64,000 nt of DNA from Streptomyces zingiberis (GTDB lineage Bacteria > Actinomycetota > Actinomycetes > Streptomycetales > Streptomycetaceae), in NCBI RefSeq assembly GCF_012034935.1, contig NZ_JAATEN010000001.1:186001-250000 (forward strand), read 5' to 3'. The notes under the pieces are model-generated. The model was not told the DNA's origin, did no database searches, and saw nothing but the letters and a program-made list of their open reading frames with translations. The translations under genes were made by a program, and so were the position numbers. Of the stretch, positions 55,848 to 62,205 are shown in pieces. Each line of letters begins with the position of its first letter. The stretch's first letter is position 1.

Positions 55848-56717
55848 ATGCGGGTACTCGTCGTCGAGGACGACCCCGGGATCGCCGACCTGCTCGTACG
55901 GGGGCTGGAGCGCGCCGGGTACGCGGCCGGCAGCGTGTCCGGCGGGCATCAGGCGCTGACCGCGGCGCCGGAGCCGGATGTCGTGCTGCTCGACCTGGGC
56001 CTGCCCGACCTCGACGGGGTCGAGGTCTGCCGCCGGCTGCGCCGCCGCTCCGATGTGGTGATCATCGTGATCACGGCCAGGGGCGAGGAGGGCGACCGGG
56101 TCGCCGCACTCGACGAGGGCGCCGACGACTACCTCGTCAAGCCGTTCGGGCTCCCGGAACTGCTCGCCAGGATCCGGGCCGTGCTCCGCCGGGCGCGTCC
56201 CGTCGGCGCGCCGGAGGAACTGCTGCGCCACGGACCGCTGTCGGTGGACCTGCGCACGCGGAAGGTCGCCGTCGGCGGCCGGGAGGTGCCGCTCACCCCG
56301 AAGGAGTTCTCCCTGCTGGAGACGTTGGCCACCGATCCGGGCCGGGTGGTGACCCGGCAGGAGATCCTGGAACGCGCCTGGGACGCGCACTGGTACGGCC
56401 CGACCAAGGTGCTGGACGTGCACGTCGCGGCGTTGCGGCGGAAACTCGGCGTCCCCGGCCTGGTCGAGACGGTGTACGGCAGGGGATTCCGCCTCGGCGC
56501 GGTGACCGGGGTGACCGGAGAGGCGCCGGGACCGGGGCCGGGGGACACCGCCCCGCACGGGCCGCCGGAGCCGCTCCCGCCGGCGCCGCTCCAGCCGGCG
56601 CCGGAGCCGCGGGACGCCGCTCGGCCGGAGCAGCCGGACGCACCGTCGCCGCCCGGAGCCCCGGGCACACCACCGCCGCCCGGAGCCCCGGGCCCTCCGC
56701 CCGCCGCAGAGCGATGA
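55848..56717 (+). CDS. OmpR/PhoB family response regulator with Pro-rich tail
   Basis: 289 residues. Receiver domain 1-118: acidic pocket EDD (7-9), phospho-acceptor Asp49 in LLDLGLPD, Lys near 99 in DYLVKPFG. Winged helix domain at about 125-220 with VPLTPKEFSLLETLATDPGR and VDVHVAALRRKLG-type recognition segment, ending VYGRGFRLG. The last 65 residues are Pro/Ala/Glu-rich and not part of either fold. Its stop overlaps the kinase start. It likely regulates the downstream redox cluster or the divergent ABC operon, an inference from position. Confidence 0.94.
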   Translation: MRVLVVEDDPGIADLLVRGLERAGYAAGSVSGGHQALTAAPEPDVVLLDLGLPDLDGVEVCRRLRRRSDVVIIVITARGEEGDRVAALDEGADDYLVKPFGLPELLARIRAVLRRARPVGAPEELLRHGPLSVDLRTRKVAVGGREVPLTPKEFSLLETLATDPGRVVTRQEILERAWDAHWYGPTKVLDVHVAALRRKLGVPGLVETVYGRGFRLGAVTGVTGEAPGPGPGDTAPHGPPEPLPPAPLQPAPEPRDAARPEQPDAPSPPGAPGTPPPPGAPGPPPAAER

Positions 56718-58132
56718 CGCGGCGGGTCGCCCTGGCCGTGATGGCCCTGGTCGCGGCGGTACTGGCGCTGGCCGTCGTCCCCCTCGGGCTGTCGCTGGCT
56801 CAGCGCGAGCGCGCGTCCTTCCGGGACGGCGCCACGGCGGCGGACCGGGCGATCGCGGCCGCCGCGGAGGAGTATCTGTCCGACGGCCGTCCCCCGGCCG
56901 CCGTGCGCGGGCTGCTGGAGCGGGCGCGGCGGGACGGGGACTGCGCCGCGGTCTTCGACGGCGCGGCCCGCCGGGAGGCGGCCACCTCGTGCCCGGCGCC
57001 GAGCCCCGCGGCGGCCGGGCGGGCCGGCGAGGACTGGGCGGCCCTGGCGCGGCGGGTGATCGCCGAGCCGCGGGTGGTGACGCGGGAACGCGACGGCCGG
57101 TTCGTCGTGGCGGCCCCGGTCGGGGACGGTGAGGACACCGCGGGCGTCGCCGTGCTCTCCCGCCCGACGGCACCGGTGGACGAGCGGATCACGGCGATGT
57201 GGGAGCGGCTGGCGGTGATCGGGGTGGCCGGTCTCGCGGCGGGCGCGCTGCTGGCCGTGGCGCTCGCCCGCTGGGTCGGCCGGCCGCTGCACGCCGTCGA
57301 CGCCGCCGCCCGGCGGCTCGGTGAGGGCCGGCTGGCGGCGCGGGCGCCCGGCGGCCGGGGCCCCGTCGAGGTGCGCAGGCTCGCGGCCACCTTCAACACC
57401 ATGGCCGCGCGGATGGAGGCCCTGATCCACGGCCACCGGGCGGTGGTCGCCGACGTCGCGCACCAGTTGCGCACGCCGCTCACGGCGCTGCGGCTGCGGC
57501 TGGACGTGCTCGCGGCGGCCGCGGACGAGACCACCGGGGGCACGTCCCACCCGGAGAGCACGGCGGACGCGGCGGACGCCGGGGACACCGCCGCCGAGCT
57601 CGCCGCCGCCCAGGAGGAGATCGCCCGGCTGTCCCGGCTGGTCGACGGGATGCTCGCGGTCGCCCGGGCGGAGAACGCGGTGCCGGTACCGGTGCCGGTG
57701 CGCGTGGACCGGGTGGTGGCCGACCGGATCGCGGCCTGGCTCCCGCTGGCCCAGGAGCGCCACGTCACGCTCACAGCGCACTGCGCGGCCGGGCTGACCG
57801 CGCGGCTGGCGGCGGGCGATCTGGAACAGGTGCTCGACAATCTGCTGGCCAACGCGGTGGACGCGGTGGGTGAGGGGGCGCGGGTACGGGTCGGGGGCCG
57901 GGCCCGCCGCGACCGGGTCGAGCTGACCGTCGCCGACGACGGCCCCGGGATGAGCGAGGCGGCCCGCAGGACCGCCTTCCGCAGGTTCGGGTACCCGGAG
58001 GGGTCCGGCACCGGGCTGGGCCTGGCCATCGTGCACCGCCTGATCACGTCCAACGGGGGCACGGCGCGGCTGGCGGAGACCCCGGGCGGCGGTCTGACCG
58101 TCGTCCTCGACCTGCCCGCCGGCGAGTCTTAA
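56714..58132 (+). CDS. Sensor histidine kinase
   Basis: 472 residues. Two membrane segments (about 8-28 and 160-183) flank a small extracytoplasmic sensor domain of about 130 residues that contains two cysteines (GDCAAVF and TSCPAPS), which could form a redox-sensitive disulfide. HAMP follows (about 184-240), then HisKA with His in DVAHQLRTPLTALR, N-box NLLANAVDA, G1 DDGPGM and G2 GTGLGLAIVH. Coupled to the response regulator by ATGA overlap. All catalytic residues are present. Confidence 0.94.
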   Translation: MTRRVALAVMALVAAVLALAVVPLGLSLAQRERASFRDGATAADRAIAAAAEEYLSDGRPPAAVRGLLERARRDGDCAAVFDGAARREAATSCPAPSPAAAGRAGEDWAALARRVIAEPRVVTRERDGRFVVAAPVGDGEDTAGVAVLSRPTAPVDERITAMWERLAVIGVAGLAAGALLAVALARWVGRPLHAVDAAARRLGEGRLAARAPGGRGPVEVRRLAATFNTMAARMEALIHGHRAVVADVAHQLRTPLTALRLRLDVLAAAADETTGGTSHPESTADAADAGDTAAELAAAQEEIARLSRLVDGMLAVARAENAVPVPVPVRVDRVVADRIAAWLPLAQERHVTLTAHCAAGLTARLAAGDLEQVLDNLLANAVDAVGEGARVRVGGRARRDRVELTVADDGPGMSEAARRTAFRRFGYPEGSGTGLGLAIVHRLITSNGGTARLAETPGGGLTVVLDLPAGES

Positions 58133-58238: not shown

Positions 58239-58568
58239 ATGTCCGATTCCGATCACCAGCCCCGCCCGGCCGTCGAGGCCGCGGTGCACCGCCGTGCGCG
58301 GGGACGGCGCCGCGTGCGGGGCGCCACCGGCTGGGCGGTGGCCGCCGCGGCCGCCGGCACCGCCGCGCTCGGCGTGGGGTACGCGCACGCGATCCCCGGC
58401 ACCTCCCCGTCCTCCGGTGGCACGCCGGACCAGAACACCACGCCGGGTCCGGCCGGGCCCCGGACCCCCGGCGGGACATCGGAACCGTCGGCTCCGGGCA
58501 CGTCGGCCCCGGCGACCCCGCCCGGGACGACCTCCCAGGCGCCCCACACTCAGTCGGGCGCGTCATGA
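58239..58568 (+). CDS. Small membrane-anchored protein ending in Ser-Gly-Ala-Ser
   Basis: 109 residues. A basic cytosolic start (RRARGRRRVRGATG) is followed by one membrane helix (about 31-50, AVAAAAAGTAALGVGYAHA), then about 58 residues of Ser/Thr/Pro/Gly-rich extracytoplasmic tail with no fold, ending QSGAS. The last four residues resemble the [ST]-G-A-[TS] motif to which ApbE attaches FMN, and the apbE gene overlaps its stop codon. The usual Asp of that motif and an FMN-binding domain are missing, so the idea needs testing. ATG 58239 has GAGGAG 7 bases upstream. No family recognised. Confidence 0.8.
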   Translation: MSDSDHQPRPAVEAAVHRRARGRRRVRGATGWAVAAAAAGTAALGVGYAHAIPGTSPSSGGTPDQNTTPGPAGPRTPGGTSEPSAPGTSAPATPPGTTSQAPHTQSGAS

Positions 58569-59536
58569 CCGCCACCCACCGGCCGGCCGCGGAGCCGGCC
58601 CGCGTCTCCTTCCGCGCGCTGGGCACCACGGCGGTCCTGCTCACAACCGGCCCGGCCGGCGCGGGGGTGTCGCTGCCGGCGCTGCGGGCGCTGCGGGCCG
58701 AGCTGGCCGCCGTGGACGCCGCGTGCAGCCGGTTCCGCCCCGACTCCGAACTCAGCCGGGTCAACGCCACCGCCGGCAGCGGCCGGCCCGTGCCGGTGGG
58801 ACCCCTGCTGGCCGAGGCCGTGACCGTCGCGCTGCGCGCCGCCGAGGACACCGGCGGCGCCGTCGACCCGACCGTGGGCCCCGCCGTCTCCGCGCTCGGC
58901 TACGACCGGACGTTCGACGAGGTGCCACCGGGGACACCGGAGCCCTCGCCGCGGCCGCGGCCGGCCGTCGGCCGGCGCGCGGTCGGCTGGGATCCCGGGC
59001 TGCGGCTGCTGCGGCTGCCCGCCGGCGGCGCGCTGGACCTGGGTGCCACGGCCAAGGCCCTGGCCGCGGACCGGGCCGCCCGGCGGGCCGCCGACGCGGC
59101 CGGCTGCGGGGTGCTGGTCAATCTCGGCGGTGATCTGTCGGTGGCCGGACCACCCCCGGCGGGCGGCTGGCGGATAGCCCTGGCCGACGACCACGCCGGC
59201 CCGCGCCCGGCGGCGGGCCCCGTCGTCACCGTCGGGGCCGGCGGCCTCGCCACCTCGGGGACGACCGTCCGCTCCTGGCGGCGCGGTGGAAGGCTCCGGC
59301 ACCACCTCGTCGACCCGGCCACCGGCACCTCCGCCCCCGTCGTGTGGCGGACCGCGAGCGTGGCCGCAGCCTCGTGCGTGGCCGCCAACACGGCCGCGAC
59401 CGCCGCCGTCGTCCTGGGCGAGCGGGCCCCGGAGTGGCTGCGGGACGCCGGGCTGCCGGCCCGCCTGGTCCACGCCGACGGACACGTACTCCACCTGGGC
59501 GGATGGCCCGACGACCCGACGGGAGGCCCCCGATGA
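58565..59536 (+). CDS. apbE: FAD:protein FMN transferase (ApbE)
   Basis: 323 residues. ApbE fold: SRFRPDSELSRVNA, AVDPTVGPAVSALGYD, the ALDLGATAKALAADRA segment, NLGGDLSVAG, and the ending region GLATSGTTVRSW with HHLVDPATG that carries the magnesium and FAD contacts. It transfers FMN from FAD to Ser or Thr of target proteins. Unlike most ApbE proteins it has no signal peptide or lipobox, so it should act in the cytosol unless carried out otherwise. ATGA overlaps on both sides place it in a co-translated cluster with redox proteins. Confidence 0.94.
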   Translation: MTATHRPAAEPARVSFRALGTTAVLLTTGPAGAGVSLPALRALRAELAAVDAACSRFRPDSELSRVNATAGSGRPVPVGPLLAEAVTVALRAAEDTGGAVDPTVGPAVSALGYDRTFDEVPPGTPEPSPRPRPAVGRRAVGWDPGLRLLRLPAGGALDLGATAKALAADRAARRAADAAGCGVLVNLGGDLSVAGPPPAGGWRIALADDHAGPRPAAGPVVTVGAGGLATSGTTVRSWRRGGRLRHHLVDPATGTSAPVVWRTASVAAASCVAANTAATAAVVLGERAPEWLRDAGLPARLVHADGHVLHLGGWPDDPTGGPR

Positions 59537-60363
59537 CCGGCTCCACCACGACCGCCCTGGCGGCCCTCGCGGCCGGCCCGAGCCCGCTCTGGTACGCCAC
59601 CCGGGCGTCGGGCACCGTCTCGCTGGTGCTGTTCACCGCGGTGACCGCGCTCGGCGCCGCCGCCGGCGGGCGGTACGCGCCCCGGCGGATCGCCCGGTTC
59701 GAGGTCTCCGCGCTCCACCGCAACCTGTCGCTGATCTCCCTGGCCTTCCTCGGCCTGCACCTCCTCACCACCGTGGCCGACACGTACACGGACATCGGCC
59801 TGACGGCCACCGTCGTGCCGTTCGTCTCCTCCTACCGGCCGCTGTGGGTGGGGCTCGGGGCCGTGGCCCTCGATCTGCTGCTCGCGGTCGCGGTCAGCAG
59901 CGCCCTCCGGCACCGTCTGGGGCACCGCCGGTGGAAGGCGGTGCACTGGCTCGCCTACGCGGCATGGCCGGTGGCCCTGCTCCACGGGATCGGCACGGGC
60001 ACGGACACCCGCCTGGGCCCCCAGCAACTGCTGTACGCGGGCTGTCTGCTGACGGTGCTCGCCGCCGCGGGGTGGCGGCTCGGCCGCGCGGGACGGCTCC
60101 CGGGCGCGGCACGGCGCACCCGGAGGCAGGCGGTCGCCGCCCCGGCGCCGGTGCCGGTGGCCCCCACCGCCCCCGCCTCCCCCGTGCCGCTCCGGACCGG
60201 GCCGGCGACTCCGCACCATCCCGGACGCCCGTGGCCGGAGATTCCGGAGAGCCCCGGAGGGCCCGGAGGACCCGGAGCACCGGAGAGAACCGGAGGAACA
60301 CGAGAAGCACGTCGGGACATCAGAGAAATCGGAGAAATCAGAGAAAGGGGTGAGGCCGCGTGA
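59533..60363 (+). CDS. Ferric-reductase-like heme membrane protein
   Basis: 276 residues. Five or six membrane helices between about 15 and 190 form a ferric reductase/YedZ-like domain. Two helices carry paired histidines, His in ALHRN and GLHLL (14 residues apart) and His in VHWLAY and LLHGIG (13 apart), the pattern for two b-type hemes stacked across the membrane. The last 85 residues are a Pro/Arg-rich cytosolic tail ending in repeats of REIGEIRE type. There is no FAD/NADPH domain, so electrons must come from another protein, probably the NuoF-like product of the next, coupled gene. Confidence 0.88.
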   Translation: MTGSTTTALAALAAGPSPLWYATRASGTVSLVLFTAVTALGAAAGGRYAPRRIARFEVSALHRNLSLISLAFLGLHLLTTVADTYTDIGLTATVVPFVSSYRPLWVGLGAVALDLLLAVAVSSALRHRLGHRRWKAVHWLAYAAWPVALLHGIGTGTDTRLGPQQLLYAGCLLTVLAAAGWRLGRAGRLPGAARRTRRQAVAAPAPVPVAPTAPASPVPLRTGPATPHHPGRPWPEIPESPGGPGGPGAPERTGGTREARRDIREIGEIRERGEAA

Positions 60364-61661
60364 CCCCCGGCCCCGTCACCACATCCACCCTGCGGCGCCC
60401 GCGGCCCCCCGCCGGCCCGGACGGCACCCGTCTGCTCCTCGGCTGGTACGAGACGGGCGGGCCCGCCGGTCTCGCCGAGCACCTGGACCGCTACGGCCCC
60501 GCCCCGTCGGCCGCCGCCCCGGAGACGCTGATCGACGCGGTGCTGCGGGCCGGGCTCACCGGCCGGGGCGGCGGCGGCTTCCCCACCGGGCGCAAGCTGG
60601 CCGCGGTCGCGGAGCGGCGCGGCCCCGCCGTCGTGGTCGCCAACGGGATGGAGAGCGAACCGGCCGGCCGGAAGGACGCCACCCTGCTCCATCTCGCCCC
60701 GCATCTCGTGCTGGACGGAGCCGTGCTCGCGGCGGTCGCGACCGGCGCGGCCACGGTGCACCTCTGCCTGGCCCGTACCCGGGGAGAGCAGGTGCGCCGG
60801 CTGGTCCGGGCGGTCGGGGAGCGGCGGCGCGCGGGAGTGGACCCCGTCCCGGTGGAGGTGCACACCCTGCCGCACCACTTCGTCTCCAGTGAGGAGACCG
60901 CGCTGGTGAACTGGCTCAACGGCGGTGCCGCCCGGCCGCGGGCCACCCCGCCCCGGCCGTTCGAGAAGGGGGTCGCCCGGCGCCCCACCCTGGTCGACAA
61001 CGTGGAGACCCTCGCCCATCTCGCCCTGATCGCCCGCTACGGCCCCGAGTGGTTCCGCGAGCAGGGCGGCCCCGAGGCCCCGGGCACCGCCCTGACGGCC
61101 CTCACCGGCTCCGTGCGCCGCCCGGGGGTGTACGAGCTGCCGGCGGACAGCTCCGTCTCCACCGCGCTCGACGCGGCGGGCGGACCCGCCGGGCGGCTCG
61201 GCGCCGTGCTGGTGGGCGGCTTCTTCGGCAGCTGGCTGCCCGCACCCCCGCACGGCGCGGACCCGGGGCGGCTCGCGGGCGTGGTGGCGGCACTGCCCGA
61301 GGAGGCGTGCGGACTCGCCGAGACGGCCGCGGTGCTGGCCTACCTGGGCGCCCAGAGCGCCCGGCAGTGCGGTCCCTGCCGCTTCGGGCTCCCGTCCGTG
61401 GCCGAGGACTTCGCCGAGCTGGCCTGGGGACGGGCCGGGGCGCCGGTGCTGGAACGCCTGAACCACCGGCTCGGCCTCCTCCCCGGCCGGGGCGCCTGCC
61501 GCCACCCCGACGGGGCCGCGCGGCTGGCCGTCTCGGCGCTGCGGGTCTTCGGTGACCACGTGGCGCGCCATCTGAGCCACGGTCCGTGTGCCTTCGCGCA
61601 CGCGCCCCTCACCCTGCCGGTGCCCGCCGCCCGGCCACCGGCCGAGGACGCGTGGCGGTGA
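60360..61661 (+). CDS. NuoF-like NADH dehydrogenase flavoprotein / Fe-S subunit
   Basis: 433 residues, related to the 51-kDa subunit of complex I and RnfC. FMN/NADH site: GRGGGGFPTGRKL (about 66-78) and VANGMESEPAGRKD (about 94-107), plus VSSEETALVNWLNGG and VDNVETLAHL. SLBB-like region at about 250-300. The C-terminal Fe-S motif is QCGPCRFGLP with a distal Cys in GRGACRHP; the first Cys of the usual SCG-X-C-X-P-C motif is Ala here. It is expected to pass electrons from NAD(P)H to the neighbouring heme protein and ferredoxin. GTG 60360 overlaps the upstream stop (GTGA). Confidence 0.92.
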   Translation: MTPGPVTTSTLRRPRPPAGPDGTRLLLGWYETGGPAGLAEHLDRYGPAPSAAAPETLIDAVLRAGLTGRGGGGFPTGRKLAAVAERRGPAVVVANGMESEPAGRKDATLLHLAPHLVLDGAVLAAVATGAATVHLCLARTRGEQVRRLVRAVGERRRAGVDPVPVEVHTLPHHFVSSEETALVNWLNGGAARPRATPPRPFEKGVARRPTLVDNVETLAHLALIARYGPEWFREQGGPEAPGTALTALTGSVRRPGVYELPADSSVSTALDAAGGPAGRLGAVLVGGFFGSWLPAPPHGADPGRLAGVVAALPEEACGLAETAAVLAYLGAQSARQCGPCRFGLPSVAEDFAELAWGRAGAPVLERLNHRLGLLPGRGACRHPDGAARLAVSALRVFGDHVARHLSHGPCAFAHAPLTLPVPAARPPAEDAWR

Positions 61662-61761
61662 GCGCGCCGCGCGGTGCCGGCGGCCCGCGCGGCCGGGGAA
61701 CGGCGACCGGCGGACGGGGCCGGGCCGAGAGAACGGCGGAGCAGGGAACGAAGACGAAGGG

Positions 61762-61806
61762 ATGACGCAGATGACCCAGATGACCCGGATGACCCAGATG
61801 ACGGAG
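61762..61806 (+). repeat. 9-bp tandem repeat at the ferredoxin start
   Basis: Five near-copies of atgacccag (atgacgcag, atgacccag, atgacccgg, atgacccag, atgacggag), each in frame and starting with ATG. The array gives five possible start codons. Confidence 0.9.
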
Positions 61807-62205
61807 CCCGCGGAGACGGCGCAGACGGCGGAGGCCTCAGGCATGGCGGAGAAGCCACGGCGCGCGGGAACGCCCGGGACGGCGGGAACGGCGGGGACGC
61901 CCCGGCCGGGGGCGCCCCGGCCCGGCGGGCGGCTCTCCGTCGACTTCGCGGCGTGCGACGGCCACGGCCTCTGCGCCGAACTGCTGCCGGAGCTGATCAC
62001 GCTCGACGAATGGGGTTACCCGGTGCTCCGTGCCACGGCCGTCCCGTCCGAGCTGGCCGGGGACGCCCGCCGGGCCGTGGCCGCCTGCCCGGTGATGGCC
62101 CTGCGGTTCACCCGGCCACCGGCGCGGCACCGGCATCGCGCGGCGGGGCGCTCCCCGGCCGGGGGGACGCGGGCCGAGCGGGGAACGCAGTCCGGGGCCC
62201 GGTGA
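61771..62205 (+). CDS. Small ferredoxin, three-cysteine type
   Basis: 144 residues from ATG 61771, which has GAAGGG at 9 bases; ATG 61762 directly abuts that site and 61780-61798 are also possible. After a low-complexity start of about 50 residues comes the ferredoxin domain: VDFAACDGHGLCAELLPE with Cys-X5-Cys, and AVAACPVMALRF with Cys-Pro. Three ligands fit a [3Fe-4S] cluster, as in ferredoxins of actinobacterial P450 systems. The C-terminal 35 residues are basic and disordered. Last gene of the redox cluster, 109 bases after the NuoF-like gene; likely electron acceptor or donor for it. Confidence 0.87.
   Translation: MTQMTRMTQMTEPAETAQTAEASGMAEKPRRAGTPGTAGTAGTPRPGAPRPGGRLSVDFAACDGHGLCAELLPELITLDEWGYPVLRATAVPSELAGDARRAVAACPVMALRFTRPPARHRHRAAGRSPAGGTRAERGTQSGAR

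Follow-up and report, generated by a model that had tools for sequence, protein, structure and literature searches.

RESULTS AND DISCUSSION

A five-gene cluster with a candidate flavin carrier

Within a 64,000-nucleotide (nt) stretch of the Streptomyces zingiberis genome (contig NZ_JAATEN010000001.1, positions 186,001 to 250,000; the whole stretch is hereafter called the window), five consecutive forward-strand genes encode an ApbE-type flavin transferase, three putative electron-transfer proteins and a small membrane-anchored protein. The first open reading frame (ORF; 58239..58568) encodes the anchored protein (109 residues), a candidate ApbE substrate and carrier of flavin mononucleotide (FMN), whose homologs share its C-terminus. 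It is followed by a 323-residue ApbE-family flavin adenine dinucleotide (FAD):protein FMN transferase (58565..59536; Pfam PF02424, E = 3e-50, with PDB matches), a ferric-reductase-like (MsrQ-like) membrane protein in which two b hemes are expected (59533..60363; Ferric_reduct PF01794, E = 3e-7), a NuoF-like protein with NADH (reduced nicotinamide adenine dinucleotide), FMN and iron-sulfur (Fe-S) domains, proposed as the point of electron entry (60360..61661; Complex1_51K, E = 2e-31; NADH_4Fe-4S, E = 1e-11; SLBB, E = 4e-7; PDB matches), and a ferredoxin with three cysteines (C65, C71 and C109; 61762..62205; Fer4_15, E = 2e-13). Overlaps of ATGA, ATGA and GTGA link the first four genes, the first of them joining the small-protein gene to apbE, and 100 nt separate the fourth gene from that of the ferredoxin. 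These ORFs and overlaps, together with a two-component system upstream, lie where an initial annotation of the window had placed them, and its identification of ApbE, a four-His heme protein, a NuoF-like protein and a three-Cys ferredoxin is backed by Pfam and by residue conservation. The same annotation held that the cluster has no classical FMN-binding-domain target, and a Pfam scan indeed found no FMN_bind domain in the cluster. The reading that the cluster lacks a target for flavinylation is probably mistaken, as only classical FMN-binding domains had been counted and the small protein ends in a conserved ApbE motif.

The small protein has an Arg-rich N-terminus, one hydrophobic segment and a tether of about 57 residues, rich in Ser, Thr, Pro and Gly, with the C-terminus ...HTQSGAS. 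Its exact C-terminus, S-G-A-S (codons TCG GGC GCG TCA and stop codon TGA; 58554..58568, forward strand), matches the published ApbE target [S/T]GA[S/T] with the modified residue last, so that the proposed flavinylation site is the final residue, Ser109. ApbE puts FMN on the last Ser or Thr of [S/T]GA[S/T] (PMC12052999, PMC8238504); the minimal motif is D-x-x-[S/T]-G-A-[S/T], seven residues being enough and replacement of Asp by Ala having a minor effect, and flavin tags perform best when placed at a protein terminus (PMC12052999). The endings TTTGAS, TTTGAS, DSTSGAS, DSTSGAS and DATSGAS are found on the counterparts next to ApbE in five congeneric genomes, with tethers that differ strongly between the TTTGAS and D[AS]TSGAS groups; at 12 related loci the protein closes with D[AS]TSGAS, which agrees exactly with the seven-residue motif. 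The window protein matched no Pfam family above cut-off (DUF3040 at E = 0.16 only) and no NCBIfam family, and none of the substrate domains FMN_bind, DUF2271, DUF3570, Flavodoxin_4 and FMN_red was above the Pfam cut-off in it; a Pfam scan of its relative at locus L085 was likewise without a match. Given the terminal motif match, the conserved endings and the precedent of tags at protein termini, the small protein looks like a natural candidate substrate of ApbE that would carry FMN on its final residue.

Spread, conservation and predicted topology of the tail

ApbE relatives at E = 1e-15 or better were found in 31 of 199 congeneric genomes. Scanning contigs yielded 62 loci from named sources, which include Streptomyces, Nocardia, Pseudonocardia, Nocardioides, Frondihabitans and a Paenibacillus as well as metagenome-assembled genomes (MAGs) of Acidimicrobiia and Chloroflexi, and a survey with PF02424 across the phylum placed ApbE in 71 of 149 genomes (places examined: 30 as loci plus 40 more taken up). 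Among 162 ApbE-matched loci the heme gene lay directly downstream in 102, and 91 of these had an upstream anchored ORF, picked by a rule blind to the C-terminus. Left out of the counts were the 60 loci without the ApbE-then-heme order (including L147 to L176) and 11 of the 102 with the right order and no usable candidate ORF (four at contig ends); inspected by eye, L058, L140, L145 and L197 of these 11 carry the motif, L112 and L178 have Ser only and L196 has neither. The refuting condition that the initial annotation had set itself, a gene order not conserved in related genomes, is not what was found: the order is kept well beyond the genus of the window.

In 54 representatives (ApbE <75% identical), 38 of the anchored proteins end in Ser, 31 end in [ST]x[GA]S and 42 have [ST]x[GA][ST] at most six residues from the end, against 8.7, 0.8 and 8.6 of 54, respectively, when the last 40 residues were shuffled. 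As a background, 756 other called genes of loci L085 to L216 gave 70 Ser ends, 9 [ST]x[GA]S ends and 29 matches to the looser rule. Endings of the form [ST]-x-[GA]-S were found in Actinomycetota and in a Chloroflexi MAG (L118), and Ser-ending variants in other Chloroflexi and in a Paenibacillus (L136, ...TGRS). Topology was predicted for all 54 proteins from a hydrophobicity window and the number of Lys and Arg residues within 15 residues of the hydrophobic segment; here, as in the ApbE site and tree counts below, the tail class comprises any locus with a candidate upstream anchored ORF, motif or not. Lys and Arg numbered 269 on the N-terminal side of the segment and 44 on the C-terminal side, and an N-in, tail-out arrangement was predicted in 52 of the 54 proteins. 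The tethers have a median length of 81 residues (57 in the window) and a median Ser, Thr, Pro, Gly, Ala and Gln share of 71% (91% in the window).

The same ending was recovered by a plasmid search whose query was the heme protein alone, with neither ApbE nor the tail being used. Eight of nine plasmid records are annotated with ApbE, the heme protein, the NuoF-like protein and the ferredoxin in the same order, and the ninth (L223) has four unnamed genes with the spacing of those at L221. All nine clusters contain an ORF that ends near the apbE start, has a hydrophobic segment and closes with an [ST]x[GA]S C-terminus (TKGS, TRAS, TAAS, SAGS, TRAS, SAGS, TRAS, SAGS and SAGS). The plasmids span four genera (Cnuibacter, one; Arthrobacter, three; Gordonia, one; Rhodococcus, four) and therefore do not amount to nine independent cases. 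In seven of the nine, no same-strand gene is tabled at the small ORF, the gene table being known to be incomplete.

Looking beyond the window, we lean toward the view that these proteins form a widespread, undescribed class of natural flavin-tag proteins: anchored tethers with FMN on, or within a few residues of, the last residue, which would act as a swinging redox arm outside the cell. Their makers would be ApbEs of a separate subfamily whose metal site is altered and which recognize a free C-terminus of consensus [ST]-x-[GA]-S-COOH.

Several variants of the anchored protein were seen along the way. Two congeneric loci (L081 and L082) have two PVTRS[SR]GS-like copies, one within the tether and one terminal, with possible double flavinylation. 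At L131 and L137, tail-like ends (NSNAS and NSQGS) close a longer upstream protein in which the tail seems to be preceded by a small domain. At L178, L184, L186 to L190, L193, L199 and L200 there is a second small anchored protein, whose coding sequence stops about 90 to 350 nt short of the apbE domain; it ends in a run of Asp residues (DD to DDDD) and may bind metal as a partner of the flavin-tail protein.

Electron-transfer proteins, gene neighborhood and proposed mechanism

All 55 aligned heme-protein sequences keep H62 and H76, and 54 of the 55 keep H138 and H151 (one gap); the PF01794 protein encoded close to apbE is thus predicted to have two bis-His heme sites. The three Cys of the ferredoxin are kept in 15 of 15 sequences, and C317, C337, C340, C380 and C410 of the NuoF-like protein in all 14 that have letters at those positions (17 aligned). 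The invariant His residues and the conserved Cys of the ferredoxin and NuoF-like protein support a predicted path from NADH through FMN/Fe-S to two hemes, probably in the order NuoF-like protein, ferredoxin, heme protein. The chain from NAD(P)H to FMN/Fe-S to two b hemes that was put forward in the initial annotation thus fits the families found and the published MsrQ-like systems, the transfer itself being predicted from that fit.

In the NuoF-like protein of the window, Ala takes the place of the first Cys of the complex I Fe-S motif, while C317 and C410 are kept, which suggests that its Fe-S site is rearranged. The start of the ferredoxin gene as called is uncertain, since called relatives have about 63 to 90 residues and no MTQMTQ-like N-terminus; in the window, the N-terminus as called (61762-61930) is of low complexity and MTQMTQ-like. 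The NuoF-like protein has weak similarity to RnfC, and an NQR/RNF-like system was considered and rejected because its subunits are missing from the proteins scanned: a family scan of the five proteins, the sensor, the regulator and the downstream gene found no NqrB/RnfD-type subunits. In congeners, a membrane protein with weak similarity to the heme protein is paired with a NuoF-like gene and no ApbE, at G000:C12:47390-48586 (L035) and at L042, L043, L044, L049, L050, L053 and L054, and these pairs were set aside; the membrane protein of L035 falls below the PF01794 threshold, and at L043 the one neighbor scanned is a lipoprotein with PF03640 secreted repeats. Beside three clusters (L085, 7361-8002; L102, 942-1499; L103, 645-1304) lies a membrane protein of 185 to 219 residues, alike by eye, for which Pfam gave no match at L085 and weak matches to Frag1 and DUF441 at L103; it is perhaps a further cytochrome.

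Upstream of the small-protein gene lie, on the same strand, a response regulator (55848..56717; Response_reg, E = 6e-27; Trans_reg_C, E = 1e-22), which synteny marks as a conserved neighbor, and a sensor histidine kinase assigned by Pfam (56714..58132) whose C77 and C93 fall in a part expected outside the cell. The order regulator, kinase, small protein, ApbE, heme protein, NuoF-like protein, ferredoxin recurs in most of 19 Streptomyces-type loci. These two cysteines of the sensor, already pointed out in the initial annotation, are present and conserved in 18 of 18 aligned kinases, and the two-component system may place the cluster under redox control.

A P-type ATPase gene lies downstream in 8 of the 19 loci compared; in addition, L088 has an ATPase fragment downstream and L092 a match on the opposite strand at the far edge. 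The complete ATPase copy that was scanned (L037) has a C-terminal hemerythrin domain. Two of the nine plasmids carry a VIT family gene close to the cluster, and one of these genes matched Pfam VIT1 at E = 1e-69. An association with VIT1 led Meheust et al. to propose iron reduction for systems of this kind (PMC8238504). Judged from gene neighborhood in relatives and from that precedent, iron is the favored candidate acceptor.

Starting from the genes, the C-terminal motif, its conservation, the predicted topology and the heme ligands, all of which were read directly from the sequence, we infer flavinylation and where it occurs, the electron path and the acceptor as follows. NADH would reduce the NuoF-like protein (FMN and Fe-S), and electrons would pass, with the ferredoxin as an optional intermediate, to the two hemes of the membrane protein and so across the membrane. 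The outer heme would then reduce the FMN on the C-terminal Ser of the small protein, and the flexible tether would let this FMN reach an acceptor outside the cell, probably Fe(III) or some other oxidant in the envelope. A cytosolic ApbE (judged by eye, its N-terminus has no evident signal peptide and no hydrophobic signal), translationally coupled to its substrate, would attach FMN to Ser109 before or during export of the tail. We regard it as probable that the cluster is a transmembrane electron-export chain whose carrier on the outside is covalent FMN on the very last residue of the small protein.

Several observations weigh against this interpretation. Tested ApbEs favor Thr over Ser at the modified position (PMC12052999), and the action of a cytosolic ApbE on a tail that ends up outside is not explained by the model. 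Five of the 54 representatives (L107, L113, L115, L183 and L206) have neither a terminal Ser nor a near-end motif, L206 having a split ApbE and a matching tail further upstream; 11 more have only the looser motif near, not at, the end, and distant members show various residues (among them R, K, S, Q, N and H) at motif position 2. A tblastn search of the window gave no match to the P-type ATPase or to VIT. To these are added an altered ApbE site, the main reason for doubt, and near-uniform tail codons in one group of loci; both are taken up below with the alternatives that they favor.

The alternative that survives best accepts flavinylation of the small protein and gives it another direction or role, electrons being taken in or redox state being sensed instead of an external acceptor being reduced. 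Electron direction is not readable from sequence, and a two-component system with two conserved Cys adjoins the cluster; however, a NuoF-like NADH dehydrogenase and a ferredoxin suit electron export, and some relatives have iron transport neighbors. We consider this alternative rather unlikely.

Most partner ApbEs have an altered triad position

The window ApbE is an ordinary PF02424 member in which Ser231 and His247 of the catalytic triad are present, and the spacing of its triad positions (16 and 28) is that of Ser241/His257/Asp285. The canonical Ser-His-Asp triad is nevertheless incomplete: 28 residues past the His, where the Vibrio cholerae and Listeria enzymes have Asp in the alignment, the window has Asn275. 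Across the ApbE-then-heme loci (n = 53), 35 enzymes have Glu at this site, 15 have Asn and 3 have Asp, and the residue four positions on is Lys in 28, Thr in 23 (as is Thr279 in the window), Ser in 1 and Leu in 1. Fifty of the 53 retain the triad Ser, the other 3 having Thr instead, and 52 retain the second His of the HH pair. ApbEs associated with FMN_bind have Asp and Thr in eight of eight cases, as did six of six sampled from the strongest PF02424 matches of the phylum survey, and seven ApbEs in other settings have Asp (three), Glu (three) or Asn (one). Mapped on a quick ApbE tree, the label "ApbE-then-heme with anchored ORF" changes 5 times, compared with a mean of 18.6 for shuffled labels (0 of 500 as low); a single FMN_bind group has little support on the same tree (21). 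The partner ApbEs thus look like a distinct subfamily with a changed site.

The exchange of Asp for Glu or Asn may alter both the activity of these enzymes and their use of metal. It could be supposed that the subfamily is inactive as an FMN transferase and serves as an FAD-binding protein or hydrolase to which the tail docks noncovalently as an assembly or regulatory partner. Loss of Asp in 50 of 53 sequences and the change of Thr to Lys in 28 favor that reading, the more so as both residues are retained in all FMN_bind-associated ApbEs; against it stand the retention of the triad Ser and the second His, and the fact that the conserved end of the tail is a hydroxyl residue at the right end of the motif, the one that receives FMN from ApbE. 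We hold an inactive subfamily to be improbable, and covalent modification of the tail by these ApbEs remains the preferred reading.

Constraint on the tail acts at the protein level

The apbE start overlaps the stop codon of the tail in many loci, and the ending could in principle be kept for a nucleotide reason (the stop/start overlap and the apbE ribosome-binding site), with S-G-A-S as a by-product. Forty loci ending in [ST]GAS, mostly of the Streptomyces type, do have near-uniform codons (GGG for Gly in 33), and an extra ribosome-binding constraint is possible in those 40. Across the 38 Ser-ending representatives, however, the terminal Ser codon is TCN in 22 and AGY in 16; the use of both unrelated codon blocks argues for selection on the protein, and little nucleotide sequence is shared. 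The ending SSGS is retained at L106, where the nearest apbE start lies 112 nt past the stop codon, and by eye no obvious ribosome-binding site lies in the window codons TCG GGC GCG TCA. A purely nucleotide explanation is thus very improbable.

Classical FMN_bind proteins occur apart from the tail clusters

The source genome has a single PF04205 (FMN_bind) match, on another contig, in a classical cluster of an FMN_bind protein, an ApbE and a ferric reductase with FAD/NAD domains; in classical clusters the FMN_bind protein fills the slot adjoining ApbE. Among 41 whole genomes with tail clusters, PF04205 was matched in 15 and in none of the other 26. Of the 41, 15 genomes had a rated completeness of 90% or more with contamination of 5% or less, and 10 of these are among the 26 without a match; several of the remaining genomes searched are MAGs of unknown completeness. 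No match was placed beside the tail cluster, the matches lying on a different contig, at a large distance or within known classical clusters, a placement that is direct where the contig is the same or clearly different and deduced for some loci. In genomes G282, G288 and G289, FMN_bind lies beside another ApbE, away from the tail cluster. That the window ApbE instead modifies the FMN_bind protein from elsewhere in the genome is scarcely credible: one such gene exists, but it adjoins its own ApbE and heme gene, 26 of 41 tail-cluster genomes have no match, and the conserved tail would be left unaccounted for.

Significance and comparison with known systems

If flavinylation of the tail is borne out, anchor, tether and terminal FMN would make up the simplest flavin redox protein known to us. 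Small genes that annotators often omit would gain a testable function, and a C-terminus-directed ApbE subfamily, of possible use in protein labeling, is predicted. The class would also explain part of the "orphan" apbE genomes, a question raised in PMC8238504. The cluster suggests that electrons leave the cell by a route not described before; the electron-transfer design itself is that of the known MsrQ-like flavinylation class.

In MsrQ-like systems (Meheust et al. 2021, PMC8238504), which occur mostly in Actinobacteria, a PF01794 two-heme protein is encoded with apbE; among 1797 such clusters, 31 have a NuoF-like PF10589 protein and 153 have VIT1 iron transporters. The window cluster resembles them in pairing a PF01794 two-heme protein with apbE and a NuoF-like partner, and differs in having no FMN-binding-domain gene, which those systems typically, though not obligatorily, hold (PMC8238504). 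For a cluster to be counted in the survey reported there, either ApbE or a known target domain needed a signal peptide or a lipidation site (PMC8238504); a cluster like that of the window, with no known target domain and an ApbE without an evident signal peptide, could have escaped it. The classical cluster of the same genome (G000:C70, L036) likewise combines an ApbE, a PF01794 heme protein and an FMN carrier. Its carrier, in contrast, is an FMN_bind protein with an internal SGAT, its heme gene lies upstream and is fused to FAD/NAD domains, and its ApbE has the canonical Asp.

The ApbE substrates described in the available sections of PMC8238504, PMC11334425 and PMC12052999 have their FMN within a folded domain or a membrane subunit, or next to a flavin-binding domain, and no terminal, domain-free FMN carrier was found in those sections or in open-literature titles and the opening lines of abstracts. 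The FMN_red and Flavodoxin_4 substrates (PMC11334425) also fall outside FMN_bind, and the FMN_red sites lie on an unstructured C-terminal extension; both, however, attach FMN near a folded flavin-binding domain, whereas the window small protein has no recognized folded domain. The closest likeness is to the engineered flavin-tag (Tong et al. 2021, as reviewed in PMC12052999), in which the seven-residue ApbE motif is placed at a terminus and its last Ser or Thr is flavinylated. The flavin-tag is a man-made tool; the window protein would be its natural counterpart, anchored in the membrane and tagged at its terminus, where the final residue is expected to receive the FMN.

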